Below, one piece after another: positions 3,968 through 64,000 of a DNA stretch of 64,000 nt. The notes under the pieces are model-generated. The model ran no database searches and was not told the DNA's origin. It saw only the letters and a program-made list of their open reading frames with translations. The DNA lies in contig NZ_NEUE01000296.1 in assembly GCF_002910905.1 (NCBI RefSeq), forward strand, positions 1 through 64,000, read 5' to 3'. Within the stretch, counting starts at the first letter, position 1; each line of letters starts with the position of its first letter. The DNA is from Streptomyces sp. SM11 (GTDB lineage: Bacteria; Actinomycetota; Actinomycetes; Streptomycetales; Streptomycetaceae). Both the position numbers and the translations under genes were made by a program.

Positions 3968-4004
3968 GTGGGACAGATTAGGTCCTCGCACTGACAACGG
4001 TCGA
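3967..4004 (-). promoter_or_regulatory. Candidate leaderless promoter for the SMC-like operon
   Basis: On the minus strand TCGACC (4004-3999) is followed after 18 bases by TAATCT (3980-3975), and the GTG start begins 7 bases later at 3967. This places transcription start at or next to the start codon. It lies immediately after the stop of the upstream oxoprolinase gene, so the SMC-like operon need not depend on read-through. The -35 match is moderate. Confidence 0.45.
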
Positions 4005-4011
4005 AACGGCG

Positions 4012-7707
<3,696 letters not shown>

Positions 7708-42144: not shown

Positions 42145-42254
42145 CTGCGTCACCTCCGAGGTTCGGTCCGACGGTGTGCGCACACCAGGACCCCAACACG
42201 ACCCACCCCTTTTGCCAGTTGTGTTCTGCCGACCTCCCCAGGAGGAACGACCAC

Positions 42255-49710: not shown

Positions 49711-49833
49711 GCGGCGTGCCGCATTGGCCGGATTCAAGGGTGCGGTCTAGAGATTTCCTGACTCCGCGCCGTGGCGATGGATCAGTACTGTCGGGAGCGT
49801 CGGGAAGCAGAAGCAAGGAATCTGGAGTCTGTC

Positions 49834-50739
49834 GTGCGTATCAGCGTCTGTATCCTGCCCGACCGTCCGTTCCGGGAGGCGGCCGCGAGCTGGCGGCACG
49901 CGGAGGAGCTGGGCTTCCACGCCGCCTACAGCTACGACCACATCACCTGGGCCGGGCTGCCGGACAGCGCCTGGTACGGCGCGATACCCACGCTGACGGC
50001 CGCCGCCGGGGTCACCTCGCGGATCAGGCTCGGCACGCTGGTGACGTCGCCGAACTACCGGCACCCGGTCCCCCTTGCCCACGACGTCGTCACGCTGGAC
50101 GCCATCAGCGAGGGCCGCTTCGTCCTCGGCTTCGGCGCGGGATCGCCGGATGCCGACGCCTTCGTGCTCGGCCAGGGCGAGCGCGGCAAGGGCTGGTCGG
50201 TGCAGGAACGCGGCGGCCGGTTCCGCGAGTCCGTGGAACTCCTGGACCGGCTGCTGACCGGAGCGCCCGACGGCCGCAAGCAGACCACCTTCCTCGGCCG
50301 CTACTACGAAGCGGTCGACGCCCGGCTGGAGCCTGGCTGCGTACAGCGGCCCAGAGTGCCCTTCGTGCTGGCGGCGAACGGTCCGCTGGGGATGCGGACC
50401 GTCGCGCGGTACGGCGCGTCGTGGGTCGTCACCGACCAGGGGGACGTACCCAGGCACGAGCGGACCGCGTCCTGGACCTGGTCCCTGCTCGCGCGGCGCA
50501 TGGAGCAGCTGGACGCGGCGTGCGAGCGGGAGGGCCGCGACCCGAAGTCCCTGGACCGTACGCTGCTGACCGGGTTCTCCCTGCTGCCGACGATGGAGTC
50601 CGCACAGGCGTTCGCGGATGTCGCGGGACGGTGCGCGGAGCTGGGCTTCACCGACATCGTGGTCCACTGCCCGCGCGAGTCCGGGTTCTTCGCCAGTCCC
50701 CGCCACGTCATCGAGGAGATCGCGCCCGCGAACCGCTGA
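49834..50739 (+). CDS. LLM-class (F420-dependent type) oxidoreductase
   Basis: This 301-residue luciferase-like TIM barrel starts VRISVCILPDRPFREAAASWRHAEELGFHAAYSYDHI. It continues with RLGTLVTSPNYRHPVPLAHDVVTLD and RFVLGFGAGSPDADAF, segments shared by F420-dependent reductases of the methylene-H4MPT reductase group. The substrate is unknown. The GTG at 49834 has GGAG 7 bases upstream. It is the last plus-strand gene before the biosynthetic cluster; a strong terminator separates them, so I treat it as outside the cluster. Confidence 0.82.
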   Translation: MRISVCILPDRPFREAAASWRHAEELGFHAAYSYDHITWAGLPDSAWYGAIPTLTAAAGVTSRIRLGTLVTSPNYRHPVPLAHDVVTLDAISEGRFVLGFGAGSPDADAFVLGQGERGKGWSVQERGGRFRESVELLDRLLTGAPDGRKQTTFLGRYYEAVDARLEPGCVQRPRVPFVLAANGPLGMRTVARYGASWVVTDQGDVPRHERTASWTWSLLARRMEQLDAACEREGRDPKSLDRTLLTGFSLLPTMESAQAFADVAGRCAELGFTDIVVHCPRESGFFASPRHVIEEIAPANR

Positions 50740-50830: not shown

Positions 50831-53800
50831 TCAGAGCAGGCCGTGCAGCCTCAGGTCGGCCACGCACTTGGCGATGTACGGGGGAGAGAGCGACGGCACA
50901 CGCCCCTCGCCCACCCCGAGAGCGCCGACCGCCGTGCTGAACCGCGAGGCCGGCACGGCGGAGCCCGCCCTCGGTACGCCCGGCCGGGCGTACGCCCGCA
51001 TCAGCGGCAGCAGCGACAGCCGGCGCTGGTGGTCGGGCAGACCGCGCAGAGCCGCCTCGGCGCGCATGTGCCACTGCCGGTGGTCGTCGAACCGGGTGAT
51101 CGGGTGGCCCGCGTCGATCAGCCAGTCCACGAACTCGTCCCACGAGATCCCGTCGTCGTGGGCGTTGACCGTGTTGTAGGTGACGTACCCGTCCTCGTTC
51201 CCGGCGCTGAGCGACGTGATCGCCGCGGCGGTGAAGTCGACCGGCAGGCCGCTGTAGTGCGCCCGCCGACGGCCGCCGTCCCGGTCGAGCCGGTAGAAGG
51301 AGCGCGGCGCCATGCCGGTCGTGAGGACACTCAGGAGCAGCCGGCTGAACCGGTCGGTCAGGTTCAGCCCGCCGGGAAGGCTGCTGTGGGCCAGGATCAT
51401 GTCCGGCCGGAACACGGTGACCGGCAGGCCCGTCCTCTCGTGCGCCTCGCGCAGCAGGACCTCGCCGGCCCACTTGCTCGTGGCGTATCCGTTCGCGTCG
51501 GAGTCGTCCAGGGGCCGTACCGGGGACGCCGTTCGGACGTCGGCCGTCTCGTCGAGGAACGAGCCGTCGGGCAGCATCGCGGCCGCCACCGTCGACACAT
51601 AGGCGAACCGCTTCGCCCGGCCGGTGAGCGCCAGCTCGATGAGCTCCGCCGTCGCGGCGACGTTCGGCGCGAACAGGCGGTGATACGGCAGGACATGGTT
51701 GACCAGCGCCGCCGCGTGCACGATCTGGTCGGTCTGCCCGGCGAGTGACTCCCAGGCCGTCTCCGTCAGGCCCAGGCGTGGCGCCGACACGTCCGCGGCC
51801 AGGACCGTCAGATGCCGCGCCGCGGCGGCGTCGAACCAGTCGGTGTGGTCGGCCACCGCGCCGCGCAGGCACGCGAGCACGCGCTGCCGTGCGGCCACGT
51901 CGTCGGCGGCCCGGGCCAGGCAGGTCAGCCGGCCGCCCGTCTCGGCGACGCGCCGCAGCCGGTCGACCGCCAGGAACCGTCCGAGATACCCGGTCGCCCC
52001 GGTGAGAAGTACGTTCTGTACGGAGGCCTGGCCGCCCCGCGCTCCGCGCCCGGCGGCCAGGAGTCGCCCGTCGACGAAGCGGTCGAGAGCCAGATCGACG
52101 GCCCGCACCTCGTGTGCGTCGCCTCCGTGCACGGAGGCGACGGTGGGGCGCGGCTCCCGGGCGTCGCGCGCCGAGCCGAGCCGGTCCGCTATGCGGGCCA
52201 GCGTCGAGGAGGGCTGGAGGATGACCTGGATGGGCACCTCCTCATCGAGGATCTGTTCGAGGACGGTCGAGAAGGTGTGCGCCGACAGGGAGTCGCCGCC
52301 CAGATCCGTGAAGGCGGCCTCCGCCCGCACCAGCGACGAGGGGCAGCCGAGGGTGATCTGCGCGGCGGCGCGGACCGCCTCCAACGGTGTGACCTCACCG
52401 CCTGCGGCCCGCAGTGCCGCTATCTGGCCCGCCCGGCCGGCCGCGATGTCCGCGTACAGCCGCTCCAGTCGCGGTCCGTAGTGTTCCTTCAGGGCGGGCC
52501 GCAGAACCTTGCCGACCCCCGACAGCAGCCCGTTCGCGACCGTGAACGGCTGCCGCTCGACGACGACGTCGTGCGGGATCTCGTACGCGTGCAGGCCCGC
52601 GCCATGGGCGAGTTCCCGCAGGGAATCCAGGACCGCGGCCCGTACGGCGGCGTCGTCGGCCCGCCCCAGGCGCTCGGCGTCGGGGACCACCACGGCCAGC
52701 GGGAACGCCTGCTCGCTGCTGCCGTACACGTAGATCTGCGCGATGTCCGGGCTGGTCGCGTACAGCGCCTCAAGGCCGGACACGGCGATGAACTCACCCT
52801 GGGACAACTTCACCACGTTGTTCATCCGGTCGACGTAGACCAGCCGGCCGGGCGCGGTCTCGGCGAAGACGTCGCCGGTGCGGTAGTAGCCGTCCTCGTC
52901 GAAGGCGCGGGCGGTGACCTCGGGCTGCTGGTAGTACCCGGGGAACAGCCCGACCGACTTCACCCGCAACTCGCCGCGGGGGTGCGGTTTGTCGGTGCTG
53001 AAGTACCCGAGTTCGGGGACGTCGGCCAGCCGGTAGCCGGTCACCGGCGGGCAGCGCACCTCCTGGTCGACGACGATGGCCCGGGTCGTCTCCGTCGACC
53101 CGTAGCAGTCGATGATCCGCGTGCCGAGAAGCGAGGCCGTAAAGGTGTGCATCGCCTCCGACAAGGGCGCGCTGCCGCACAGGGCGAAGACGATCCGGCC
53201 GCCGAGCATGCTGTCGCGGACCAGGGCCGACGCGGCTGCCTCGGCCCTGGGGCGGGGTGTGCCGGTGCGGCCGAGACGGTCGGCCTCGAGCAGGTACCGC
53301 TGGTACACCATGTCGCAGATCCTCGGCACCAGGCTGAACACCGTGGGACGCGACAGGCGGATGTCGTCGAACAGCGTCGACATGTCGCCGCGGGCCGCGA
53401 AGTAGCCGGTGCCGCCGGCGGCGAGGCCGTTGACCAGCCAGGCGCGGCCGTTGACATGGCTCATGGGCGTGTAGTGCAGCACGAACACCGGGGTGCCGCT
53501 GCCGCCTCCGGCGTTCAGCCCGCCGCGGGCGTTCTGCCACATCCTCGTGATCATGGAGGCGGTGTAGATCGCGCCCTTGGGCGTGCCCGTGCTCCCAGAG
53601 GTGTAGATCAGGCCGACCAGCCGGTCCGGATCCCCGTCCTCGTACGGTTCCGCGGCCGGCAGCCGGGCGCCCCGGCCCACCTCGTCCACCAGCGGAACCA
53701 CCTCGGCCCGCCCGCTCAGCCTGCCGCCGGCCGACTCGAACGCCTCCCGGTCGTCGTCCACTCGGGGGTCGTAGTCGAAGACCACCAGGCGCTCGATGGA

Positions 53801-54346
53801 GTCGGACGCCAGGACGGCGCCGACCGCGGCGTCGAGCGAACCGACGTCGGCCGCGAGGATCCTCGGCCCCGTCTCGGCGACGACCGGAGCCAGCCGTGCG
53901 GCGGACGAACCGGTGGGAAGCGGCACCGAAACCGCGCCCAGGTACATGCAGGCCAGGTCGATGACCGCGTAGTCGACACCGGTGAACCCCAGGGTCGCGA
54001 CGAAATCCCCGGCACGCAGACAGTCCGGGCCGTCGGCCCAGGCGGCCGCCAGTCGGCCGACCCGTTGCCACAGTTCGGCGTAGGTCAACGTGTCGAAGAC
54101 AGGGAGGAGTTCACGGGTGCGGCGGCCGGTGGCGGGGTCGCGGACGACACGGCCGGCCCTGCGGGCGAGGGCCGGCCGGTCGGCGTACCCGTGCATGGCG
54201 GCCGCGATGACCCCCATGAGGCCGTCCTGGCGGCCGATGGCATCGGCGACGTCGGGTGACGGGACCGCCCCGGCGAACTCGGGATCGCCCGCGTGCAGGG
54301 CAGCGATCCTTGAGGCGACATCGTGACCTGCCTGATGCTCCGACAT
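50831..54346 (-). CDS. car: Carboxylic acid reductase (adenylation-carrier-reductase)
   Basis: This 1171-residue enzyme activates a carboxylic acid with ATP, loads it on a phosphopantetheine arm and reduces the thioester with NADPH to an aldehyde. The adenylation domain (about 1-640) has LIYTSGSTGTPKGA near 249, CYGSTETT near 415 and the A10 lysine in LLSGVGKVLRPAL near 612. The carrier domain has its serine in DLGGDSLSAHTF near 686. The reductase domain (about 780-1171) has LLTGATGYLGRF and the catalytic Tyr/Lys in NGYATSKWAGE. All key residues are present. It needs a phosphopantetheinyl transferase, not seen here. GGAG lies 5-6 bases before the ATG. The acid substrate is unknown. Confidence 0.93.
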   Translation of the reverse strand: MSEHQAGHDVASRIAALHAGDPEFAGAVPSPDVADAIGRQDGLMGVIAAAMHGYADRPALARRAGRVVRDPATGRRTRELLPVFDTLTYAELWQRVGRLAAAWADGPDCLRAGDFVATLGFTGVDYAVIDLACMYLGAVSVPLPTGSSAARLAPVVAETGPRILAADVGSLDAAVGAVLASDSIERLVVFDYDPRVDDDREAFESAGGRLSGRAEVVPLVDEVGRGARLPAAEPYEDGDPDRLVGLIYTSGSTGTPKGAIYTASMITRMWQNARGGLNAGGGSGTPVFVLHYTPMSHVNGRAWLVNGLAAGGTGYFAARGDMSTLFDDIRLSRPTVFSLVPRICDMVYQRYLLEADRLGRTGTPRPRAEAAASALVRDSMLGGRIVFALCGSAPLSEAMHTFTASLLGTRIIDCYGSTETTRAIVVDQEVRCPPVTGYRLADVPELGYFSTDKPHPRGELRVKSVGLFPGYYQQPEVTARAFDEDGYYRTGDVFAETAPGRLVYVDRMNNVVKLSQGEFIAVSGLEALYATSPDIAQIYVYGSSEQAFPLAVVVPDAERLGRADDAAVRAAVLDSLRELAHGAGLHAYEIPHDVVVERQPFTVANGLLSGVGKVLRPALKEHYGPRLERLYADIAAGRAGQIAALRAAGGEVTPLEAVRAAAQITLGCPSSLVRAEAAFTDLGGDSLSAHTFSTVLEQILDEEVPIQVILQPSSTLARIADRLGSARDAREPRPTVASVHGGDAHEVRAVDLALDRFVDGRLLAAGRGARGGQASVQNVLLTGATGYLGRFLAVDRLRRVAETGGRLTCLARAADDVAARQRVLACLRGAVADHTDWFDAAAARHLTVLAADVSAPRLGLTETAWESLAGQTDQIVHAAALVNHVLPYHRLFAPNVAATAELIELALTGRAKRFAYVSTVAAAMLPDGSFLDETADVRTASPVRPLDDSDANGYATSKWAGEVLLREAHERTGLPVTVFRPDMILAHSSLPGGLNLTDRFSRLLLSVLTTGMAPRSFYRLDRDGGRRRAHYSGLPVDFTAAAITSLSAGNEDGYVTYNTVNAHDDGISWDEFVDWLIDAGHPITRFDDHRQWHMRAEAALRGLPDHQRRLSLLPLMRAYARPGVPRAGSAVPASRFSTAVGALGVGEGRVPSLSPPYIAKCVADLRLHGLL

Positions 54347-54432
54347 GAATGCTCCGGTGTGTGTGGAGTGCGAGGGACCAGCTGCGAGCGCGGGTGCGTG
54401 CCGGGCGGCGGGCGGCAATTCGACGACAGGCC

Positions 54433-55830
54433 CTAGCGGCCCGTTGCGTCGGCGGGCTGTGCCCGGCCGCCGAGAAGGGCGGCCAGGCCCATCAGGACGT
54501 AGACGGCGATGAGGGCGAACGCCGGTGCGGCGATGCCGCCTCCGGACTGGAGGCCGGCGAGCAGGGCGACCCCGATCAGGGATCCGGTCGACCGGCCCGC
54601 CGACATCAGCCCGGAGGCGATGGCCGATCGGTGCTCCGGGGCCGCGGCCAGGGTCAGGGTGATCTGTGGCACGGTCACCAGGCCGAAACCGAGCCCGATG
54701 AACGCCAGCCCGGCACAGGTGCCGACCGGGGTGTCGCCGCCGACGACGGCCAGCACCACCGCGCCGAGCAGGGACAGCAGGATGCCGGCGCCCAGCACCG
54801 CCCGGGCACCGTACTTGGCGGCGAAGCGTCCCGCGGCCAGCGGCATGAAGGTGATCGGCAGGGCGGATGCCAGGAAGAACAGCCCGACGGTGATCGGGTC
54901 GTAACCGCGCACCTGCTGGAGGAACACGCTGAGCGTGAACATCAGCCCGTTGTAACCGACGAAGAGCAGCAGGCCGACCGCGACATAGCCGCGGAACCCG
55001 GGGGCCCGGAACAGGTCCGCCGGAATCATGGGGTACGCGTAACCGCGCTGCCGGACCACGAAGGCGGCGAACGCGGCCAGGGCCGCCACCGCCGCCACCA
55101 CGGGCAACGGCCGGGTCCATCCCAGCTCCTGTCCTTCGGCGAGCGCGAGCGCGAGACCGCCGAGGAAGACGATGGACAGCAACTGGCCCGGCACGTCCTG
55201 CGGTTCCTTGGACGTGGACCGTTCGACCCGTGGCATGTTCCGTGCCGAGAGCCACAGGACGACCAGGACGATGGGCACGTTGATCCAGAAGATGCTCCGC
55301 CAGCCCACCGTCGCGACCAGGGCGCCCCCGAGCGTGGGACCGAAGGCGACCGGACTCCCGGCGACCATCGACCAGATGGAGATGGCTTTGGCGCGCTTGC
55401 CGGGCTCCCGGTAGGTGTCGGTGAGCATCACCAGGGTGGCGGGCATGACGAGCACCGCTCCCAGCCCCTGGGCCGCCCGCACGGCGACGAGCACCGTGCC
55501 GTTGGGGGCGAGCCCGCACAGCGCGGAGGCCACCCCGAACAGCGCGACCCCGAGCCGGAACATCCGCACCGCGCCGTAGTGCCCCACCGCTGCGGCTCCG
55601 GCCAGCATCAGGCCGGCGATGACGACCACGTAGGAGGTGACGACGAACTGCATCGTCGGAAGGCTCGCGTGGAGACTGTCGCGGATCGCCGGGATCGCGA
55701 CGTGGAGGATGCTGGTGTCGACGACGATCATCCCGTGCGCCAGACAGGCCACCGCCAGGACGCGGCCGGGCCGCAGGGCCGCACCGCCGCTGTCGGACGT
55801 GCGGTTGTCGAAACTGGTGGATTCGGCCAT
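54433..55830 (-). CDS. DHA2-family MFS exporter of the biosynthetic cluster
   Basis: This 465-residue protein (from ATG 55830) has about 14 membrane helices in the EmrB/QacA (DHA2) pattern. Motif C-like GSPVAFGPTLGGALVATVGWRSIFWINVPI and the first-helix signature VVDTSILHVAIPAI are clear. It probably exports the cluster product or gives self-resistance. An in-frame ATG at 55857 is an alternative start; neither has a strong ribosome site. It is followed after 86 bases by the carboxylic acid reductase gene, with which it should form one transcript. Confidence 0.88.
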   Translation of the reverse strand: MAESTSFDNRTSDSGGAALRPGRVLAVACLAHGMIVVDTSILHVAIPAIRDSLHASLPTMQFVVTSYVVVIAGLMLAGAAAVGHYGAVRMFRLGVALFGVASALCGLAPNGTVLVAVRAAQGLGAVLVMPATLVMLTDTYREPGKRAKAISIWSMVAGSPVAFGPTLGGALVATVGWRSIFWINVPIVLVVLWLSARNMPRVERSTSKEPQDVPGQLLSIVFLGGLALALAEGQELGWTRPLPVVAAVAALAAFAAFVVRQRGYAYPMIPADLFRAPGFRGYVAVGLLLFVGYNGLMFTLSVFLQQVRGYDPITVGLFFLASALPITFMPLAAGRFAAKYGARAVLGAGILLSLLGAVVLAVVGGDTPVGTCAGLAFIGLGFGLVTVPQITLTLAAAPEHRSAIASGLMSAGRSTGSLIGVALLAGLQSGGGIAAPAFALIAVYVLMGLAALLGGRAQPADATGR

Positions 55831-55910
55831 GGCCTGCCATTTCGCATGAGTTCGCATGGGTTCGCGTCAGCGCGCATGAGGCGGTGAATTGATGCCGACA
55901 ATACTGCGAA

Positions 55911-55938
55911 ACCCTAGTGACAAAACACGCAGCGTCAA
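55911..55938 (-). promoter_or_regulatory. Promoter of the MFS-carboxylic acid reductase operon
   Basis: On the minus strand TTGACG (55938-55933), a 16-base spacer and TAGGGT (55916-55911) match the Streptomyces housekeeping consensus well. The MFS start follows about 80 bases later. Confidence 0.55.
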
Positions 55939-55994
55939 CCACGCAGTCCGCCAAACCGACCCCGATGTCCGAATGGTCCGATTCCAGGGTCAGG

Positions 55995-56053
55995 TATAGA
56001 GAACGGTCCACTTCCCCACGGGGCCTGACGCTCCATAGCCTCAGAGCGCTGAG
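55995..56053 (+). promoter_or_regulatory. Possible promoter and operator of the plus-strand biosynthetic operon
   Basis: A TATAGA -10-like box lies at 55995-56000, but no good -35 is visible at 16-19 bases, so an activator or alternative sigma factor may be needed. Downstream, CTCAG (56040-56044) and CTGAG (56049-56053) form a small inverted repeat around AGCG in the leader. No regulator gene is present within the visible part of the cluster. Confidence 0.35.
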
Positions 56054-56096
56054 AATCCCAAGAGGGCACAGCCTGGAAGTGCAGGGGGGAACACCA

Positions 56097-57755
56097 TTGT
56101 CCTTTTCCCGAGAGTTCCGGGGAATTCCACAACGTCCGTCACCCATGCCGTTCCACCGCTATGCGCGGGATACCACCTCTCCCACTTCGGGCTGGTCACG
56201 GCGGTGGCCGGACGGTGCGGTCGACCGCGCTCCGATCTGGGCCTCGGTTGATCTCCGGGACGGAAACCAGGCGCTGGCCGACCCCATGGACATGCGCCGG
56301 AAGCAGCGGATGTTCGACCTGCTCGTGGCGACAGGTTTCAAAGACATAGAAATCGGATATCCGGCGGCCAGCGCGCACGATTTCGATTTCGTCCGCGAAC
56401 TGGTCACCAAAGAGGGAATCCCGGACGACGTAACGGTCTCGGTTTTCACGCCGGCCCGCCCAGAACTCATCGAGCGGACCTTCGACGCGATTCGCGGAGC
56501 CGACCGCGCCGTGGTGCATTTGTGCCATGCCACGGCCTGCCTGTGGCGCGAGGTCGTGTTCGGGATGTCGCCGCGCGAGGTCCTGCGCATGGCTGTCGAC
56601 GGCGCACAGCACCTGGTGCGCCTGGCGGAGCGTGAGCCCGCGACCGACATCCGGTTCGAGTATTCACCCGAGACCTTCAACCTGACCGAGCCGGAGTTCG
56701 CCCTGGAGATCGCGAACCGGGTCGCGGAGGTCGTCGACGCCACGTCCGACCGGCCGCTCGTGCTGAACCTCCCGACCACCGTGGAGACCCACTCGCCCCA
56801 CGTCTTCGCCGACCAGGTGGAGTGGATGCACCGCAACCTCGACCGGCGTGACGCGATCATTCTCTCCGTCCACCCGCACAACGACCGGGGTACCGCCGTC
56901 GCTTCGGCGGAACAGGCCATGCTCGCCGGGGCCGACCGGGTCGAGGGCACCTTGTTCGGCAACGGCGAACGCACCGGGAACGTCTGCCTGGTGACCCTCG
57001 CGCTCAACCTGTTCAGCAGCGGAGTCGATCCCCAGCTGGATATCTCCGACATCGACGCCGTCCGCGAGATCGTCGAGGACTGCAACCGACTGCCCGTGCA
57101 CCCCCGCCACCCCTACGCCGGCGACCTGGTCTACACCGCCTTCTCCGGCACCCACCAGGACGCCATCGCCAAGGGCTTGGCCGCACTGGCCGACCGGGCC
57201 GAACGGGAGGGCAAGGACGTCGGCGACATGCCCTGGCAGGTGCCCTACCTGCCCATCGACCCGAAGGACGTCGGCCGTGACTACCAGGCGATCATCCGGG
57301 TGAACGGCCAGTCGGGCAAGGGCGGCATCGCCTACGTGCTCAAGGCCGGCTGGGGGATCGACCTGCCGATGGAACTGCGGCGGGACTTCGCCGCCGTGGT
57401 CCAGTCCGCCGCCGACGCCCTGGGGCACGAACTGGAACCGTCGGAGATCTGGCAGCTGTTCCGGGAGACCTACTGCCTCGACGACTCGCCCGCACTGCCC
57501 GTCGGCGACGGCGGTGGCGGTGCCGACGGCGCCGAGATCCTCGCACGGCTCGCCGCCGAGCACGGTATCGGGTTCACCCGGCCCCGGTTCACCGGCACGG
57601 CGGCGACCGGCGCACCGATGACCTGCCTCGTGGCGGTGGACACGGGCGGCCGCACCGTCTGGGGACTCGGCCAGGCGGCCACCGCCCCCGACGCGGCACA
57701 CAGATCTGCTCGTTCCGCGCTGCTACGGGCGGGCCTGCACGAAGGAGACCAGTGA
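56097..57755 (+). CDS. LeuA-like 2-isopropylmalate synthase homologue of the biosynthetic cluster
   Basis: This 552-residue DRE-TIM metallolyase condenses acetyl-CoA (or a related acyl-CoA) with an alpha-keto acid. The DLRDGNQAL metal site lies near residue 51, the HxH of SVHPHNDRG near 260, and NGERTGNVCLVTLALNLF follows. A C-terminal dimer/regulatory region is present but short. I choose the TTG at 56097 because AGGGGGG lies 7 bases upstream, and the resulting N-terminus (PSPMPFHRYAR) aligns with the PSxMPxHKY opening of genuine LeuA proteins. ATG 56145 has no ribosome site. No leuB, leuC or leuD lies nearby, so a specialised role (chain extension or unusual malate-type acid) is likely. The GTGA overlap couples it to the next gene. 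Confidence 0.88.
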   Translation: MSFSREFRGIPQRPSPMPFHRYARDTTSPTSGWSRRWPDGAVDRAPIWASVDLRDGNQALADPMDMRRKQRMFDLLVATGFKDIEIGYPAASAHDFDFVRELVTKEGIPDDVTVSVFTPARPELIERTFDAIRGADRAVVHLCHATACLWREVVFGMSPREVLRMAVDGAQHLVRLAEREPATDIRFEYSPETFNLTEPEFALEIANRVAEVVDATSDRPLVLNLPTTVETHSPHVFADQVEWMHRNLDRRDAIILSVHPHNDRGTAVASAEQAMLAGADRVEGTLFGNGERTGNVCLVTLALNLFSSGVDPQLDISDIDAVREIVEDCNRLPVHPRHPYAGDLVYTAFSGTHQDAIAKGLAALADRAEREGKDVGDMPWQVPYLPIDPKDVGRDYQAIIRVNGQSGKGGIAYVLKAGWGIDLPMELRRDFAAVVQSAADALGHELEPSEIWQLFRETYCLDDSPALPVGDGGGGADGAEILARLAAEHGIGFTRPRFTGTAATGAPMTCLVAVDTGGRTVWGLGQAATAPDAAHRSARSALLRAGLHEGDQ

Positions 57756-58255
57756 AGAACAACTCTTTCCACACGGTCGGTCCCGGTATCTACCGGGAAG
57801 ACAGCGGGATGGTCTACGAGGACTACGTACCCGGCGAGGTGGTCGAACACCGGCCGGGCCGGACGATCACCATGACCGACAACGTGTGGAGCTCCCTGCT
57901 CTGCCTCAACCAGCATCCGCTGCACATCGATGCCGTCTACGCCGAGCAGACCCGGTTCGGCAAGATCGTCGTCTCCAGTCTGGTCACCTTCGGGATCGTG
58001 AACGGGATGACCGTCTCCACCATCAGCGCCAAGTGCGTCGCCAACCTCGGTTGGGACAAGGTGCGGCTGACCGCCCCGGTGTTCGTGGGCGACACGCTCT
58101 ACGCACAGACCCGCATCGTCTCCCGGCGCGAGTCCGGCACGCGCCCCGACCAGGGAATCGTGACCGTCCACACCACCGGCCGGAACCAGGACGACGTGAC
58201 GGTGATCGAGTTCGAGCGGACGATCCTCGTCCCCAAGCAGGAGGCACAACAATGA
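57752..58255 (+). CDS. MaoC-type hydratase/dehydratase
   Basis: This 167-residue single hot-dog protein is close to the mesaconyl-CoA/itaconyl-CoA hydratase branch of the MaoC family. Residues 22-60 (YEDYVPGEVVEHRPGRTITMTDNVWSSLLCLNQHPLHID) carry the expected active-site Asp and His (TMTDN and HPLHID). It should add or remove water on an alpha,beta-unsaturated acyl-CoA. MaoC and CitE proteins paired in one operon are known from itaconyl-CoA and mesaconyl-CoA metabolism. The GTG start overlaps the LeuA stop, and its own stop overlaps the next ATG. Confidence 0.88.
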   Translation: MKNNSFHTVGPGIYREDSGMVYEDYVPGEVVEHRPGRTITMTDNVWSSLLCLNQHPLHIDAVYAEQTRFGKIVVSSLVTFGIVNGMTVSTISAKCVANLGWDKVRLTAPVFVGDTLYAQTRIVSRRESGTRPDQGIVTVHTTGRNQDDVTVIEFERTILVPKQEAQQ

Positions 58256-59199
58256 TTCCGGTCATCGACCTGGACCCGGAGCGTCCCGGCCTCGAACACA
58301 GGACAGCCGAGGAGATATCCGACGCCTGCCGGCAGACCGGGTTCTTCGTGGTACGCGGACACGGCATCGCCCGCGAGGTCTTCGACGACGCCTACGACGC
58401 CTCGCTGCGCTTCTTCCGCCTCCCGCTGGAGAACAAGCGCGAGTTCCCGATGCGCACCTCCACCGCGCGCGGCGACAACGACTACAGCCCCTACGGGTAC
58501 AGCGCCCTGCTCTCCGAGAACGCCTACGCCTACACCGGGAAACCGGGAATGCCGTCGGATTACGTCGAGAAGTTCAGCACCGGACGGCTGATCCTGAACG
58601 ACGATGAAGAACTCCCTTTCCCGGACGACGAGTCGGGGGCACAGCTGCGCGCGGCCCTGAAGCAGTACTTCGCCGCCTGCGAGACCGTGGCGGGCCGGAT
58701 CGCCGAGCTGCTGGCCCTCGCCCTGGACCTGCCCAGGGACTTCTTCGCCACCCGGACGAACACCTCCAACGACTCGCTCCGCTCGCACCTCTACCCCGGA
58801 GTCGCCCCCGAGTTCCTCAACGACCAGGGCATGGGGCAGCACACGGACGGCACGCTGATCACCCTGCTCACCCAGGACGGCCCGGGCCTCCAGCTCCAGG
58901 ACCGCTCCGGCCGCTGGCTGGACATCGACGTCCGGGAGCGCGACAGCTTCATCGTCAACATCGGCGACCTGATGGCCCGTTGGTCGAACGACGAGTACGT
59001 GTCGACGCCGCACCGGGTCCGGCTCGCCGACCGGCAGCGGCAGTCCATCGTGTTCTTCAAGCTGGCCAACGACGACACCGTCATCGAGTGCTTCCCCAAG
59101 TTCGCGGCGGACCGACCCGCGAAGTACGAGCCCATCCGCTACGAGGACTACTCACTCCAGAAGATGAACCTGCTGTTCGGAAGGGAAGACGCGCAGTGA
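58252..59199 (+). CDS. IPNS-like Fe(II)/2-oxoglutarate-dependent oxygenase
   Basis: This 315-residue protein belongs to the isopenicillin N synthase/flavanone hydroxylase-like group. The N-terminal domain reads ISDACRQTGFFVVRGHGI. The iron ligands are in GQHTDGTLITLL (His and Asp, near 198-200) and STPHRV (near 253). The 2-oxoglutarate-binding RQSIVFF follows near 262. All catalytic residues are present. It should hydroxylate, desaturate or cyclise an intermediate. It overlaps both neighbours by four bases. Confidence 0.92.
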   Translation: MIPVIDLDPERPGLEHRTAEEISDACRQTGFFVVRGHGIAREVFDDAYDASLRFFRLPLENKREFPMRTSTARGDNDYSPYGYSALLSENAYAYTGKPGMPSDYVEKFSTGRLILNDDEELPFPDDESGAQLRAALKQYFAACETVAGRIAELLALALDLPRDFFATRTNTSNDSLRSHLYPGVAPEFLNDQGMGQHTDGTLITLLTQDGPGLQLQDRSGRWLDIDVRERDSFIVNIGDLMARWSNDEYVSTPHRVRLADRQRQSIVFFKLANDDTVIECFPKFAADRPAKYEPIRYEDYSLQKMNLLFGREDAQ

Positions 59200-60059
59200 A
59201 GTCCTACGCGAGCCTGCTCTACACCCCGGCGCTGCTGCTGGCGTCGGTCGCCCGGCCCGGCCGGGTCCGCGCCGACATGCTGGTCCTGGACCTGGAGGAC
59301 TCCATCCATCCGGCCAGGAAGGCCGAGGCCCGTGCCCTGCTGGCGCAGGCGGACGACCTCACCGGGGCCGGCCTGCCCGCACTCGGCATGCGGGTGAACA
59401 CCATCGCGACGCCCGACGGCCTGGCGGACATGCGGGCGCTGGTCGAGATGGACGCCACCATCGGCGGCGTACCTCTCGACGTGGTCTTCATCCCCAAGAT
59501 CTCCGGCCCCGGCGACGTTGCCATCTACCGGTCACTGCTGTCGCACACCTCCAGGCCGCCGCAGATCTGCAGCTTCATCGAGAGCATCGACGCCGTCGAC
59601 AACGCCGTCGAGATCGCCGCGGTCAGCGACGGCCTGTGCTTCGGCCAGGCGGATCTGACGGCCGACCTGTACGCCGAGAACACCTTCTACCTCGATCACG
59701 CGCGGGCCCGGCTCTGCTCCGCGGCGGCCAAGTACCGCGTGCCCGCGATCGACACCAACTCGTTCGAACTGCACGACCTCGACGTCGTCGCGGCGCAGTG
59801 CCGGGCGGCCCGGGACGCCGGATTCACCGGCAAGGCGGCCATCCACCCCCGGCAGGTCGACACCATCGCCGAGACGTTCACCGTCGGCCCGGACAAGATC
59901 GCCGAGTACCGCAGCGTGGTCGAGGACTACAACTCCACGTCCTACGGCTTCGCGGTCGAGGAGGACCGCGTACTCGCCCCGCCGTTCGTGCTGCGGGCCC
60001 AGCGCATGCTCGAACTCCACGCACCCGACGAAGCCGCCCGGAACGCCCACACCAAGTAG
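59196..60059 (+). CDS. CitE-like (HpcH/HpaI family) acyl-CoA lyase/aldolase
   Basis: This 287-residue TIM-barrel enzyme resembles citramalyl-CoA, malyl-CoA and beta-methylmalyl-CoA lyases. MLVLDLEDSIHPARK lies near residue 30. The metal ligands are the Glu in CSFIESIDAVDNAVEIA and the Asp in LCFGQADLTADL. A C-terminal loop carries AAIHPRQVDTI. It could cleave or form a C-C bond between an acyl-CoA and an alpha-keto acid or aldehyde. Paired with the MaoC protein, it can interconvert an unsaturated acyl-CoA and a hydroxy acyl-CoA. GTGA overlap with the preceding gene. Confidence 0.9.
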   Translation: MKSYASLLYTPALLLASVARPGRVRADMLVLDLEDSIHPARKAEARALLAQADDLTGAGLPALGMRVNTIATPDGLADMRALVEMDATIGGVPLDVVFIPKISGPGDVAIYRSLLSHTSRPPQICSFIESIDAVDNAVEIAAVSDGLCFGQADLTADLYAENTFYLDHARARLCSAAAKYRVPAIDTNSFELHDLDVVAAQCRAARDAGFTGKAAIHPRQVDTIAETFTVGPDKIAEYRSVVEDYNSTSYGFAVEEDRVLAPPFVLRAQRMLELHAPDEAARNAHTK

Positions 60060-60073
60060 CCCAGGGGATCCCA

Positions 60074-60964
60074 GTGAAGAAGCTTCCGCAGCACGCGATC
60101 ATCGACGTCTCCACCCACCCGACCGAGCTGACCGACGGCCGGCTCCACGCCGTCGGGGACGAACTCGTCCTGGAACTGGTGCGGCTGGTCGCCGAAGGCG
60201 AAGGCGTCGCCGTCTGCCACGGCGTCGCCAAGACGCTGGCGCACCACGGACTGGACGTCCGCAAGGAGCAGGACGCCGCGATCGCCCGCGACTACCTCGA
60301 GTCGCTGTTCCGCGGCTTCGGCGAGCACGTCGACGTCTCCCGGTTCAGCCCCGTCACGATGGACTACGACCGCATCGCCGGCATGGACGTCGACGGGTAC
60401 AACAAGAACACGCACTTCACGCCCAACGGCGACCACACCACCGAGCGCGAGTTCCTGACGACCAAGTGCGTGCACTTCGACGCCGCCACACCGTTCATCG
60501 GGAACATCTACGGGCCCAACACCAACATCACCGACGGCACCCCGATGGTCTGCGACACCCGCGCCTACTGCCAGGACACCGGGGTCTCCCCCGCCGATCT
60601 GCTGGAGCTGATGCCGCACAGCTACAACGTCGCGGTCAAGGAGGAACATGCCGAGCCGGTCCTGGCCGGATACGCGTCCGCCGTGGACGCCGACCTGTCC
60701 GCCGACCTGGTCATGGTCGTCCTGCTCAACGAGGTGGAGGGCGGGCTCGCGCACGCCGGCTCCGAGCCCCGTCCCGCCGACCCCACCCGGCCCTCGCGCC
60801 GCCCGATCCGGCACCTGGAGTACCAGTTCGCCGAGGATGTCGAGCTGTCGAAGTGGTACCGGCACTACCGCCTGGAGATCCCGCAGCCCAGCCTCCAGGT
60901 GCCGGACGAGGCCGCGCGCGAGCGCTACCACCGCGGGATCGACCCGGTCGGGACGAACCAGTGA
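60074..60964 (+). CDS. Probable Fe(II)/2-oxoglutarate-dependent oxygenase of an unrecognised subgroup
   Basis: I did not recognise this 296-residue protein as a named family. The segment KCVHFDAATPFIGNIYGPN (His134-x-Asp136) followed by DGTPMVCDTRAYC resembles the HxD strand and the following GG-x-P-x-x-x-D turn of TauD-like oxygenases. A distal His could be in PIRHLEYQF (about 249), and a 2-oxoglutarate-binding Arg in YRHYRLEIP. The N-terminal half (LVRLVAEGEGVAVCHGV) fits the usual lead-in strand. The GTG start has CAGGGG 6 bases upstream and lies 14 bases after the CitE stop, the only non-overlapping junction in the operon. If the reading is wrong, a cupin-type enzyme is the alternative. 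Confidence 0.6.
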   Translation: MKKLPQHAIIDVSTHPTELTDGRLHAVGDELVLELVRLVAEGEGVAVCHGVAKTLAHHGLDVRKEQDAAIARDYLESLFRGFGEHVDVSRFSPVTMDYDRIAGMDVDGYNKNTHFTPNGDHTTEREFLTTKCVHFDAATPFIGNIYGPNTNITDGTPMVCDTRAYCQDTGVSPADLLELMPHSYNVAVKEEHAEPVLAGYASAVDADLSADLVMVVLLNEVEGGLAHAGSEPRPADPTRPSRRPIRHLEYQFAEDVELSKWYRHYRLEIPQPSLQVPDEAARERYHRGIDPVGTNQ

Positions 60965-61875
60965 CGACGTCCACGGAATACAGCGTGCCGACCATGTCCG
61001 CACGTGACCGCGAGGAGCTCGACACGCTCCTCGCGTCCCTCGCCTCGGACGAATGGCCGCCGGACATCGACGACGCCCGGGTGTTCTACGACGCATGGGG
61101 CGCGCCGATCGCCGACGACATCGAGGTCGAACAGCGCGACGGCGGCCACCTGTTGACCCCACCGAACGCGGAGGGCTCCCCGACCGGGCTCTACCTGCAC
61201 GGCGGCGGATACGTGTACGGCTCCCTGCGCAGCCACGGCCACATGGTCTCCGAGATCGCCCGCGCGGCCCGCTGCCGGATGTTCTTCGTGGACTACCGGC
61301 GAGCCCCCGAGCACCCCTACCCGGCGGCGCTCGACGACGTCGTGGCCGCGTACCGGAGCCTGCTCGCCGACGGGGTCGCCGCCTCCGACCTGGTCCTCGC
61401 GGGCGACTCGGCGGGCGGCGGCCTGGTGCTCGCGACGCTGCTGAAGCTGCGGGACTCGGGGCTGCCGCTGCCGGCCGCCGCGGCCTGCGTCTCGCCGTGG
61501 ACCGACCTCACGGGCAGCGGGGAGAGCTACCACGCTCTGGAGCACGAGGACCCCATGCTCAGCAAGCCGGTCGTGGACCTGGTGTCCGCGTCGTACCTGG
61601 CGGGCACCGCGCCCACACATCCGTACGTCTCCCCGCTGTTCGGGGAACTCGCGGGGCTGCCCCCGGTGCTCCTCCAGGTGGGCAGCCGCGAGATTCTGCT
61701 CAGCGACGCCGAGCGGTTCGCGGCCGGGCTGCGGCGCGCGGGAGGCACCGGTGTGCTGGAGGTCTGGCCCGGCATGGTGCACGTCTGGCACCTCCACCAC
61801 GCGCGCCTCGCCAAGGCCCGCGAGGCCGTGAGCCGGCTCGGCGGCTGGCTCCGCGCCCAGGCGGCGGGTGCGTGA
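60961..61875 (+). CDS. Alpha/beta hydrolase, hormone-sensitive lipase (HSL) family
   Basis: This 304-residue hydrolase has the oxyanion motif HGGGYVYG near residue 80, the nucleophile elbow GDSAGGG near 148, an acid in REILLSDAERFA and the catalytic His in WPGMVHVWHLHH. It might act as an esterase, thioesterase or amidase releasing or trimming an intermediate. There is no signal peptide. The GTG start overlaps the previous stop, and its stop shares one base with the next start (TGATG). Confidence 0.9.
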   Translation: MTTSTEYSVPTMSARDREELDTLLASLASDEWPPDIDDARVFYDAWGAPIADDIEVEQRDGGHLLTPPNAEGSPTGLYLHGGGYVYGSLRSHGHMVSEIARAARCRMFFVDYRRAPEHPYPAALDDVVAAYRSLLADGVAASDLVLAGDSAGGGLVLATLLKLRDSGLPLPAAAACVSPWTDLTGSGESYHALEHEDPMLSKPVVDLVSASYLAGTAPTHPYVSPLFGELAGLPPVLLQVGSREILLSDAERFAAGLRRAGGTGVLEVWPGMVHVWHLHHARLAKAREAVSRLGGWLRAQAAGA

Positions 61876-63101
61876 TGACCGAGGACATCACAGGACCCCA
61901 CCGGTACCGCAACAACCGGAAGATGGTGCCCGCCGGTGAGGCCGCGTGGGGCCTGTCCCGCAAGCACGGGATGCTCGGCCTCGTGGTCGAGGCCGTCGAC
62001 GGCCAGAACCGGCTGCGCGACATCCGCACCGGGCACGAGTTCGCCAACCTGTCGTCCTGCTCGTACCTGGGTCTCAACAGCCACCCCACGGTGATCGAGG
62101 CCGGACGCGCCGCACTGGACGAGGAGCGGATCACCGGGCTGTCCATGGGCGAGTTCCGGATCCGGCTCGGCATCATGGAACGGCTGGAGGAGGAGCTCGC
62201 CGCGCACTTCGGCACCCATGTGCTGCCGTCGGTGTCCTGCGGGGTCCTCAGTTCGGCGATCCTGCCGCTGCTCGCCTCCGGGCATCTGACCGACGGCGAG
62301 CCCCTCGTCGTGGTCTTCGACCGGTTCGCGCACTTCTCCCTGAACTTCCTCAAGCCCGTTCTCGCCGACGAGACACTGGTGGTGACCTGTCCGCACAACG
62401 ACATGCAGTACCTCGAGGACGTCTGCAAGCGGTACCCGCGGGTGGCCTACGTCGCCGAAGGCGTCTACTCCACCGGCGGGCAGGCCGACCTGAAGGGCAT
62501 CAAGGATCTCCAGGACCGTTACGGGATGTTCGTCTACCTCGACGACTCCCACGCGCTGTCGGCCGTGGGCGGGCGCGGTGAGGGATACGCGCGCACCGTG
62601 TTCGACACCCTCGGTTCCCGCACGATCATCGTCGCCTCGATCGCCAAGGCGTTCGGCAGCACCGGCGGCATCGCCATGGTCGGCGACCGCGACGTGTTCG
62701 ACCTCCTCTACCGGTCCGGGCCACTGGCCTGGTCCCAGGGGTTGCGGACCGCCGCGGTCGGCACCACGCTCGGGGCCCTGGAGGTCCACCGGAGTCCGGA
62801 ACTCGGCCTGCGGCAGCGACAACTCGCCCGGAACATCGCCCTCTTCGACGAGCGGTTGCGCGACCACGGCCTGCGGGGCACCGGATCGCACATCAAGTTC
62901 GTCACCGTCGGCGACAACGACCGGGCGGTGGCGCTGTCGACCGAGCTCTACCGGCGCGGCTACTACTGCTCCGCCATGTTCTTCCCCATCGTGGCGCAGG
63001 GGCAGGCGGGTGTGCGGATGATGCTGCGTGGCGACATGGCGGCGGAGCTGACCGAACGCTTCGCGACGGACCTCCTCGACGTGCTGGCGGAGCTCGCATG
63101 A
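61875..63101 (+). CDS. Alpha-oxoamine synthase (PLP-dependent, AONS/KBL/SPT-like)
   Basis: This 408-residue fold-type I enzyme resembles 8-amino-7-oxononanoate synthase, 2-amino-3-ketobutyrate ligase and serine palmitoyltransferase. These condense an amino acid with an acyl-CoA or acyl carrier with loss of CO2, giving an alpha-amino ketone. Key segments are LSSCSYLGLNSHP, GEFRIRLGIMERLEEELAAHFG, VYSTGGQADLKGI and YLDDSHALSAVGGRGEG. The PLP lysine is in ASIAKAFGSTGG near 257, where classical members read SLSKxFG. No biotin or threonine-catabolism gene is nearby, so a biosynthetic role is likely. ATGA overlap with the next gene. Confidence 0.9.
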   Translation: MTEDITGPHRYRNNRKMVPAGEAAWGLSRKHGMLGLVVEAVDGQNRLRDIRTGHEFANLSSCSYLGLNSHPTVIEAGRAALDEERITGLSMGEFRIRLGIMERLEEELAAHFGTHVLPSVSCGVLSSAILPLLASGHLTDGEPLVVVFDRFAHFSLNFLKPVLADETLVVTCPHNDMQYLEDVCKRYPRVAYVAEGVYSTGGQADLKGIKDLQDRYGMFVYLDDSHALSAVGGRGEGYARTVFDTLGSRTIIVASIAKAFGSTGGIAMVGDRDVFDLLYRSGPLAWSQGLRTAAVGTTLGALEVHRSPELGLRQRQLARNIALFDERLRDHGLRGTGSHIKFVTVGDNDRAVALSTELYRRGYYCSAMFFPIVAQGQAGVRMMLRGDMAAELTERFATDLLDVLAELA

Positions 63102-63991
63102 CCATCACGGACCCGGAGCACGACGTGTCCGACGTGGCGGCCGTGGCCGCGCTGATGCGCGAGAGCCTGCGCAGCGGCGCGGTGCGGCGGATGGCCGTAC
63201 CGCTGCGGCAGGTCGTCGACGACGGCCGCGGCGCCAGATTCCTGTCCATGCCCGCCGTCAGTGCCGATCTCGGGCTGTGCGTCAACAAGACCGCCACCAT
63301 CACCGACGGTCCGGGCCCGACCGTCACGTCCGTGGTCCCGGTGTTCTCCACCACGACCGGGGAGCTCCTCGGGGTGCTGGACGGCGCGGCCGTCACCAAC
63401 CTCAAGTGCGCGGCCGTGACGGCGCTGGTCACCGATCGCTGCGCGGACCGGGACAGCACCGTCCTCGGGATCGTCGGATCGGGGGTGCAGGCCTGGCAGC
63501 AGTACCTCGGGGTGACGGCGGTGCGCGGGATCACCGAGGTACGGGTCCACTCCCGTACCCCCGAGCACGCCGGAATTCTGTGCGAGCGCATCCGGCGCGC
63601 GGATCCGGGGGTACGCGCCCTGGTCGGCGCGTCGGCCGAGGAGGCCACCGCGGGAGCGGATGTCATCTCGACGGCGACGACCTCCGTACGGCCGCTGCCG
63701 ATCGCCGCCGGACTGCCGGAGCACGTGCACATCAACTGCATGGGCGCGCACACCACCGAGTCGCGGGAGCTGCCCCGCTCGCTCCTGTCCACCGTCACGC
63801 TCGTCGTCGAGGACATGGCGATCGCCGTCGCCGAGGCGGGGGAGATCCACCGCACGGCGATCGACCTGGAATCCCTGGAGACCGGCTCGCACCCCGGACT
63901 CGACGGCCGCCCGACCGTCTTCAGCTCCACCGGACACGCCTCACTGGACCTCATCACCTGTGCCCATCTGGTGGCGCGGCCACACCCTTGA
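63098..63991 (+). CDS. Ornithine cyclodeaminase/mu-crystallin family protein
   Basis: This 297-residue protein has the NAD(P)-binding loop GIVGSGVQAWQQYL near residue 125 and the substrate-site lysine region CVNKTATITDGPG near 60. ISTATTSVRPLP and NCMGAHTTESRELP are further family marks. Members cyclise ornithine, reduce cyclic imines (ketimine reductases), or split amino-acid conjugates as SbnB does. In a cluster making an amino ketone and an aldehyde, reduction of a cyclic imine is an attractive guess. The ATG overlaps the oxoamine synthase stop. Confidence 0.88.
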   Translation: MTITDPEHDVSDVAAVAALMRESLRSGAVRRMAVPLRQVVDDGRGARFLSMPAVSADLGLCVNKTATITDGPGPTVTSVVPVFSTTTGELLGVLDGAAVTNLKCAAVTALVTDRCADRDSTVLGIVGSGVQAWQQYLGVTAVRGITEVRVHSRTPEHAGILCERIRRADPGVRALVGASAEEATAGADVISTATTSVRPLPIAAGLPEHVHINCMGAHTTESRELPRSLLSTVTLVVEDMAIAVAEAGEIHRTAIDLESLETGSHPGLDGRPTVFSSTGHASLDLITCAHLVARPHP

Positions 63992-64000
63992 CCGAGCAGT
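63988..64000 (+). CDS. Start of a further operon gene (partial, at the right edge)
   Basis: TTG ACC GAG CAG begins at 63988 and overlaps the preceding TGA by the same four-base pattern (TTGA) seen through the operon. Only four codons are visible, so this is a positional inference that the cluster continues. Confidence 0.3.

Follow-up and report, generated by a model that had tools for sequence, protein, structure and literature searches.

Gene content of the Streptomyces sp. SM11 locus

The 64,000-nucleotide (nt) stretch analyzed here, referred to as the window, comprises positions 1-64,000 of contig NZ_NEUE01000296.1 from Streptomyces sp. SM11. From position 50831 it holds a gene cluster that includes a pyridoxal phosphate (PLP)-dependent alpha-oxoamine synthase (AOS) and a member of an unnamed protein family that we call P7. 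Eight plus-strand genes form an operon in the order LeuA-MaoC-OG1-CitE-P7-HSL-AOS-OCD, and two genes on the minus strand, encoding a carboxylic acid reductase (CAR) and an MFS exporter, face this operon. The genes within the window are as follows:

50831-54346, minus strand: CAR, with adenylation, thiolation and reduction (A-T-R) domains (NCBIfam NF041592 equivalog and Pfam; scanned as 50831-54343)
54433-55830, minus strand: MFS exporter (Pfam MFS_1, 2.2e-56)
56145-57755, plus strand: LeuA paralogue (Pfam HMGL-like and IPMS_D2)
57752-58255, plus strand: MaoC hydratase/dehydratase, mesaconyl-coenzyme A (CoA) hydratase-like (Pfam MaoC_dehydratas and MC_hydratase)
58252-59199, plus strand: OG1, an Fe(II)/2-oxoglutarate (Fe/2OG) oxygenase (Pfam DIOX_N and 2OG-FeII_Oxy; PDB profile search matches Fe/2OG enzymes)
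59196-60059, plus strand: CitE-like aldolase, RipC/Ccl-like (Pfam HpcH_HpaI; RipC_Ccl below cut-off)
60074-60964, plus strand: P7, predicted Fe/2OG-oxygenase-fold protein of an unnamed family (invariant residues and AlphaFold model)
60961-61875, plus strand: HSL-family alpha/beta hydrolase (Abhydrolase_3, 7.4e-57; GESAG HSL subfamily below cut-off)
61872-63101, plus strand: AOS (PRK07505, 443.9 bits against a cut-off of 342; PLP lysine region aligned; tree)
63098-63991, plus strand: NAD(P)H reductase of the OCD/mu-crystallin family (Pfam OCD_Mu_crystall, 2.3e-35)

Six of the seven operon junctions overlap, five of them by 4 nt and the HSL/AOS junction by 4 nt from a GTG start or 1 nt from the next ATG; the CitE/P7 junction, with a 14-nt gap, is the sole one that does not. 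The initial annotation, made by reading the letters without database searches, had named these genes and noted the overlapping junctions of an eight-gene operon. Both descriptions hold, with the gene labels and positions borne out by Pfam, NCBIfam and, for P7, a structure model. Its statement that the cluster has no polyketide synthase (PKS) module and no condensation domain is likewise correct for all proteins scanned (the window's ten plus those examined downstream), and neither an amidinotransferase nor a CoA-transferase was found among the cluster proteins scanned.

The end of the window falls within the cluster, and the same contig runs on to 69683. Its remaining genes, in contig coordinates, are:

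64033-64239: 68-amino-acid open reading frame (ORF), downstream of OCD and before the amidase
64232-65689: amidase
about 65686-66942: second MFS exporter
66958-68310: 450-amino-acid protein, by predicted fold an ATP-grasp ligase, without a Pfam match
contig end, opposite strand: LuxR-family regulator, cut by the contig end

The 68-amino-acid ORF, which we take to be AtzG-like in appearance, had no match in the Pfam search. Two tandem Xaa-Pro aminopeptidase (M24) genes lie on another contig of the same genome (C10 of G000, positions 1129-2541 and 2674-4044, locus L145), which synteny with G459, a relative carrying the same cluster, places about 210 bases after the cluster contig. A third Xaa-Pro aminopeptidase copy lies elsewhere in the genome, and the two linked enzymes might act as spare targets or in maturation.

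Because it lies outside the window, the ATP-grasp ligase was invisible to the initial annotation. A model of the 450-amino-acid protein (pLDDT 74.7), built on nine sequences of which four are only 20-25% identical, matched YgiC and the glutathionylspermidine/glutathione synthetases in VIA (Z 26.4, root mean square deviation (rmsd) 3.6, 346 residues aligned). On this model the protein is an ATP-grasp ligase of the glutathione-synthetase/YgiC fold, and no PGM1_C or PreAtp-grasp domain was matched in it by Pfam. The presence of such a ligase suggests that the product is probably peptide-like.

Co-conservation of the cluster genes

Nineteen related loci (L007-L025), not all of them independent, were picked by an AOS search of named genomes, and gene presence was counted in flanking sequence of at most 10 kb. 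Their hosts are Streptomyces, Kitasatospora, Embleya, Nocardia, Corallococcus and one Rhodobacter metagenome-assembled genome (MAG). P7 is present at all 19 loci, OCD and OG1 at 18 each (OG1 being degenerate in three), MaoC and CitE at 15 each, HSL within the gene run at 15, LeuA at 13, the amidase at 11 and an M24 peptidase at 10. The Nocardia locus, L020, has no LeuA, OG1 or HSL that could be seen. An ATP-grasp-like protein occurs at 17 loci, missing in L012 and L020, and belongs to one of three groups, of which the window's was modelled and the others align at 20-25%. The genes that the initial annotation had grouped are thus largely co-conserved, which makes a chance grouping very unlikely and excludes the lack of co-conservation that the annotation had named as a refutation.

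Some of these loci carry further genes beside the shared set. In L021, the Corallococcus locus that was annotated, the core adjoins a double-ketosynthase protein and a protein with AMP-binding, peptidyl carrier and condensation domains, and the Corallococcus variant has an L-amino-acid-ligase-like ATP-grasp. In the Rhodobacter MAG, two proteins without Pfam matches, aligning with the ATP-grasp set at 20-22%, stand beside the core (L025, 9983-21194), as does a lantibiotic-dehydratase-N-like protein. In S. purpureus (L016, 17320-19037), Pfam identifies an AurF-type N-oxygenase at a distance of about 4-5 kb on the downstream side of the core, together with a protein that by eye resembles seryl-tRNA synthetases.

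The CAR has AMP-binding, PP-binding and NAD_binding_4 domains in A-T-R order; its score of 1501.5 bits exceeds the cut-off of 1300 for the NCBIfam CAR equivalog. Within the fetched flanks it is present at five of the 19 loci (L007-L011, from Streptomyces, Kitasatospora and Embleya), and none was found in the stretch examined of L012-L015 and L018; for L012-L019 the sequence covered extends only about 4-5 kb beyond LeuA on the upstream side, where the gene sits. Having been seen in only five of 19 loci, the CAR looks like a sub-clade addition and not part of the core. The same distribution bears on a beta-lactone pathway, which a generic cluster finder might call here since an HMGL-like protein (LeuA) and an AMP-binding enzyme both lie within the cluster. 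Since the AMP-binding enzyme scores as a CAR equivalog and is unseen at 14 of the 19 loci, we rejected this reading as extremely improbable, in keeping with the initial annotation, which cautioned that such a label may mislead.

A flavin-dependent-oxygenase-like gene (named by eye; 49771-50739) was considered as a member and dropped, since the genomes of L009-L011 have only 46-49% homologues of it. At L048 and L049 a homologue of 89-93% identity does adjoin the cluster, and one of 81% is present in the L008 genome. A probable secreted chitinase at 42174-44609 (by eye, from the translation) is unrelated to the cluster.

Predicted activities of the cluster enzymes

Sequence searches for P7 gave no Pfam match at cut-off (one at chance level, E 0.15) and nothing in NCBIfam or the PDB. 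However, H134-x-D136, H227, R243 and R246 are invariant in all 19 rows of an alignment (A1) of the window protein and those from 18 of the 19 loci, L013 being left out because its extracted frame was too long. The AlphaFold model (mean pLDDT 75.4, residues 104-131 poorly modelled) gave a single Foldseek match at E <= 0.001, to the CsiD glutarate hydroxylase (TM 0.39). In VIA it matched GlaH/CsiD (Z 11.8, rmsd 3.2, 191 residues aligned, 12% identity), followed by KDO1, clavaminate synthase and AsnO. The invariant H-x-D...H and these model matches assign P7 to the Fe/2OG-oxygenase fold with the expected iron ligands, so that the "second probable Fe/2OG enzyme" of the initial annotation was aptly named. 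P7 is rare: it was found in two of 396 actinomycete genomes and in nine of 392 Streptomyces genomes (own included in both counts), and a tblastn search of plasmids had no match. Two of the nine are remote relatives in another gene context (L050, 8612-9577; L051, 9347-10291), with 30-31% identity and the same H-x-D...H pattern. Neighbouring genes encode what by eye is an S9-peptidase-like protein and, from Pfam in L051 only, a class I PLP enzyme. There may be another small pathway that uses the P7 oxygenase family at these two loci.

The other oxygenase, OG1 (alignment A2, 13 of 19 possible rows), seems to have been lost together with HSL at three loci. In L016, L017 and L019, the operon has no HSL, and OG1 is in frame without its iron-binding motif:

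L016, 7316-8095: degenerate OG1
L017, 7374-8081: degenerate OG1
L019, 7258-8025: degenerate OG1

The ratio of nonsynonymous to synonymous substitution rates (dN/dS) of OG1 at these loci is 0.53-0.65, against 0.23 in intact relatives, and that of P7, CitE and AOS at the same loci is 0.13-0.34. The raised ratio is insufficient by itself to indicate decay, because P7 also reaches 0.49-0.51 in pairs with L012.

The window LeuA has no Pfam domain beyond HMGL-like and IPMS_D2 at E 0.001, and phmmer aligned its residues 2-450 to Mycobacterium tuberculosis LeuA (1sr9), the remainder giving nothing beyond a weak second match at 502-529. Catalytic and metal motifs (DLRDGNQ, HPHNDRG and GNGERTGN) are kept in all 14 cluster LeuAs, from the window and 13 loci. 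The same 14 proteins have F and C at the positions aligned with Leu143 and Tyr169 of the M. tuberculosis enzyme (L143F, Y169C), which we take to be contacts of the 2-oxo-acid pocket, and 259-284 residues follow GERTGN in them. Two other LeuA homologues of the same type in the SM11 genome have L and Y at the pocket positions and 305 and 290 residues after GERTGN. By these comparisons, the cluster LeuA has a reduced leucine-regulatory C-terminal domain and an altered 2-oxo-acid pocket, and the two features together make a changed substrate and a loss of leucine feedback likely. A simpler role would be that the paralogue merely boosts flux through the leucine pathway as a feedback-insensitive enzyme, or serves as a resistance copy, with CitE using 4-methyl-2-oxopentanoate. 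The missing part of the regulatory domain and the two further LeuA homologues in the genome would fit such a role. We nevertheless consider it rather unlikely, since both pocket changes occur in every cluster LeuA and in neither of the other two copies and, if the contact roles are as we assume, suggest a changed substrate.

The R, E and D that we take to be the lyase-site residues of CitE are kept in 16 of 16 cluster CitEs. The two best PDB chains for MaoC are a MaoC domain dehydratase (4e3e) and a beta-methylmalyl-CoA dehydratase (8hgn), and in NCBIfam MaoC comes closest to RipB/Ich and CitE to RipC/Ccl, both below cut-off. The kept CitE residues, the family and PDB matches of MaoC and the below-cut-off kinship with RipB and RipC make it likely that these two enzymes carry out alkylmalyl-CoA chemistry in the forming direction and supply the acyl donor of the AOS. 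Those best NCBIfam matches would equally suit an itaconate-type catabolism in which MaoC and CitE run in the degradative direction as RipB and RipC do. We rejected such a function as very unlikely, because MaoC reaches 210.6 bits of the 340 demanded for RipB/Ich and CitE 153.7 of the 375 for RipC/Ccl; the lack of a CoA-transferase among the cluster proteins scanned and the linkage to an AOS, an ATP-grasp ligase, a CAR and exporters argue against it as well.

Relation to ketomemicin biosynthesis and a proposed route

An AOS search of 392 Streptomyces genomes found 30 with a match at E <= 1e-40. The resulting 31 AOS rows comprise seven of class A (the window type), 20 whose surroundings were fetched (11 of class B, three of class C and six without an adjoining CitE) and four that were left out (G645, G749, G461 and G760). 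Class A thus occurs in seven of the 392 genomes, own included; five of these matches coincide with L007, L013, L015, L017 and L019 and are not extra evidence. The six AOS relatives with no CitE adjoining (L123-L126, L132 and L133) are 39-42% identical to the window AOS.

In an AOS tree of 43 rows, the window falls in a clade of 20 (the window, L049 and 18 of the 19 loci, with L025 outside) that is sister to L120-L122 with support of 100/99 and stands apart from class B and from the AOS without an adjoining CitE. The gene order at L121 is HpcH/HpaI aldolase, AOS, MaoC dehydratase, PGM1-type ATP-grasp, amidinotransferase (PDB match to arginine:glycine amidinotransferase at E 4.5e-46, no Pfam match) and zinc-binding dehydrogenase. 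This is the gene composition given for ktmA-F of ketomemicin biosynthesis in the available text of the report (PMC11943689), and we call L121 ktm-type by that composition, not by comparison with reference ktm sequences. Window proteins are 50-52% (AOS), 50-53% (MaoC) and 32-34% (CitE) identical to those of L120-L122, and L120 has a partial ATP-grasp match at its contig edge. Like the ktm type, the window has an HpcH/HpaI aldolase and a MaoC-type dehydratase adjoining the AOS, and its AOS, judged by the sister clade that includes L121, belongs with the KtmB-like PLP C-acyltransferases. The cluster has neither a PGM1-type ATP-grasp nor an amidinotransferase nor a zinc-type dehydrogenase (ktmF). 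The initial annotation knew of no described pathway with such a gene set, but the aldolase/AOS/dehydratase core resembles that of ketomemicin.

The OCD protein may take the place of ktmF. Neither L025 nor L121 has an OCD, but each carries a zinc-type dehydrogenase, a hint that OCD performs the reduction assigned to ktmF in the ktm pathway.

Class B (11 loci: L117-L119, L127-L131 and L134-L136) is found in no fewer than 11 of these 392 genomes and is commoner than the window type. It resembles the window cluster in having an AOS, CitE, MaoC, OCD and an ATP-grasp related (29-31%) to that of the window cluster. In place of LeuA, P7, OG1 and HSL, all 11 loci have a 4-hydroxy-2-oxovalerate aldolase, an acetylating acetaldehyde dehydrogenase and a cupin_8 protein, the first two above their NCBIfam cut-offs in L136. 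No LeuA match was found in any of the 11, and an M24 peptidase lies in eight of the 11 stretches fetched. Acting in reverse, the aldolase/dehydrogenase pair can make a 2-oxo acid. Since this pair replaces LeuA, the simplest reading is that both share one role, supplying a 2-oxo acid to CitE.

Taken together, these comparisons suggest that the cluster directs biosynthesis of a ketomethylene pseudopeptide by the core logic of ketomemicin while lying outside the ktm type proper, a reading to which we assign a probability of roughly 0.6. From gene content, conservation, phylogeny and predicted folds we infer all chemical steps of the following route. The LeuA paralogue, probably with housekeeping LeuCD and LeuB, would form a homologated 2-oxo acid, to which CitE, in the role of KtmA and judging by its subfamily, would attach the acetyl or malonyl group of a CoA ester, forming an alkylmalyl-CoA. 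Dehydration by MaoC would yield an alkylfumaryl- or alkylidenesuccinyl-CoA, and the pattern of exchange with the ktm zinc-type dehydrogenase suggests OCD for the subsequent reduction. The AOS, by its family and phylogeny, would then join the CoA ester to an amino acid with loss of CO2, forming a 5-amino-4-oxo-2-alkyl acid. P7 and OG1 would oxidize this product, HSL working with OG1, and the ATP-grasp ligase would add an amino acid; the amidase or an Xaa-Pro aminopeptidase would trim the product or protect the host. In this sub-clade the CAR would convert the free acid into an aldehyde, and the two MFS proteins would export the product. The initial annotation had proposed that a branched or unsaturated acyl-CoA is assembled and condensed decarboxylatively with an amino acid, along with an oxidation and the reduction of an acid to an aldehyde. 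That outline fits the homology, except that the last step, with a CAR at five of 19 loci, seems not to belong to the core.

The same enzymes could instead lead to a nitrogen heterocycle, if the amine closed on the CAR aldehyde to give a six-membered cyclic imine that OCD reduced to a piperidine or the oxygenases aromatized to a 3-hydroxypyridine. An alkylfumaryl-CoA from CitE and MaoC would give the aldehyde the spacing from the amine that such a ring closure needs, and the relatives of OCD, below cut-offs, include pyrroline/piperideine-2-carboxylate reductases. Such a product nonetheless appears unlikely: OCD accompanies 18 loci and the CAR only five, which gives OCD a core role independent of the aldehyde, and the ATP-grasp-like proteins at 17 loci suggest amide-bond formation.

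Several observations weigh against ketomethylene pseudopeptide biosynthesis along the proposed route. First, the counts rest in part on near-copies, for example L013-L015. Second, the Corallococcus loci (L021-L024) have P7-HSL-AOS-OCD-OG1 and two ATP-grasp-like ligases with no LeuA, MaoC or CitE, and CitE had no match at E <= 0.001 in two of three Corallococcus-type genomes searched; the AOS may therefore accept quite different acyl groups. Third, no supported clade in the CitE tree holds classes A, B and C together, and their aldolases may thus stem from separate recruitments; the CitE and MaoC scores given above also fall short of the RipC/Ccl and RipB/Ich cut-offs. A C-terminal lid Asp is absent from all 31 AOS-linked CitEs, but its loss was dropped as a marker of ktm-type aldolases because seven of 14 control CitEs lack it too. 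Fourth, L122, although in the AOS clade of L121, has none of the ktm D-F genes. Finally, the exchange of OCD for a dehydrogenase is weakened by a distant dehydrogenase-like gene (25-37%, by query) that the Corallococcus loci have besides OCD, and by L120 (cut by the contig end) and L122, in which neither enzyme was seen.

If a ketomethylene pseudopeptide is made, the product may be a protease-inhibitor-like small molecule of an undescribed type. According to the available text of one report, the arphamenines of Chromobacterium, which are aminopeptidase B inhibitors, are the sole natural ketomethylene pseudopeptides besides the ketomemicins (PMC11943689). We tentatively hypothesize, as a possibility more than an expectation, that the window cluster makes a third such family, with a 2-oxo acid from the altered LeuA, two Fe/2OG oxidations, a peptide-like aldehyde in this sub-clade and an M24 aminopeptidase as the target, spare copies of which lie in the cluster, and that class B makes a fourth. 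Should the ketomemicin-like logic be correct, at least two further ktm-related pathway types (classes A and B) occur in Streptomyces, and cluster finders keyed to nonribosomal peptide synthetase (NRPS) or PKS domains might overlook both or give them a wrong label. The swap between LeuA and the 4-hydroxy-2-oxovalerate aldolase pair suggests a modular choice of side chain, and the linked Xaa-Pro aminopeptidase genes suggest a testable target.

In the open-access literature searched, we found no described CAR/AOS or LeuA/MaoC/CitE/AOS cluster, or relatives of the ktm type, other than ketomemicin itself. The itaconate degradation systems (RipB/RipC and Ich/Ccl) have homologues of the window MaoC and CitE, which differ in scoring below the cut-offs, in their biosynthetic setting and in having no CoA-transferase that could be seen. 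Dynaplanin biosynthesis offers a second comparison, since DynZ is a stand-alone PLP C-acetyltransferase in the pathway of an arginine-containing pseudopeptide (PMC9239090). The window AOS would resemble it as a stand-alone PLP enzyme of C-acyl transfer in a pseudopeptide pathway; dynZ and dynY suffice in a heterologous host, and the available text of that report mentions no CitE/MaoC route.

The described relative of the cluster is the ketomemicin pathway. There, KtmA acts on phenylpyruvate and malonyl-CoA, and KtmB acts on arginine. The window cluster differs in having no amidinotransferase, an OCD protein rather than a zinc dehydrogenase and an ATP-grasp of the glutathione-synthetase fold rather than the PGM1 type, and it adds a LeuA, two Fe/2OG enzymes, an HSL hydrolase, an amidase and a CAR. 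What it shares with ketomemicin is an aldolase, a PLP C-acyltransferase, a dehydratase, an ATP-grasp ligase and a reductase, operating without an NRPS or PKS.

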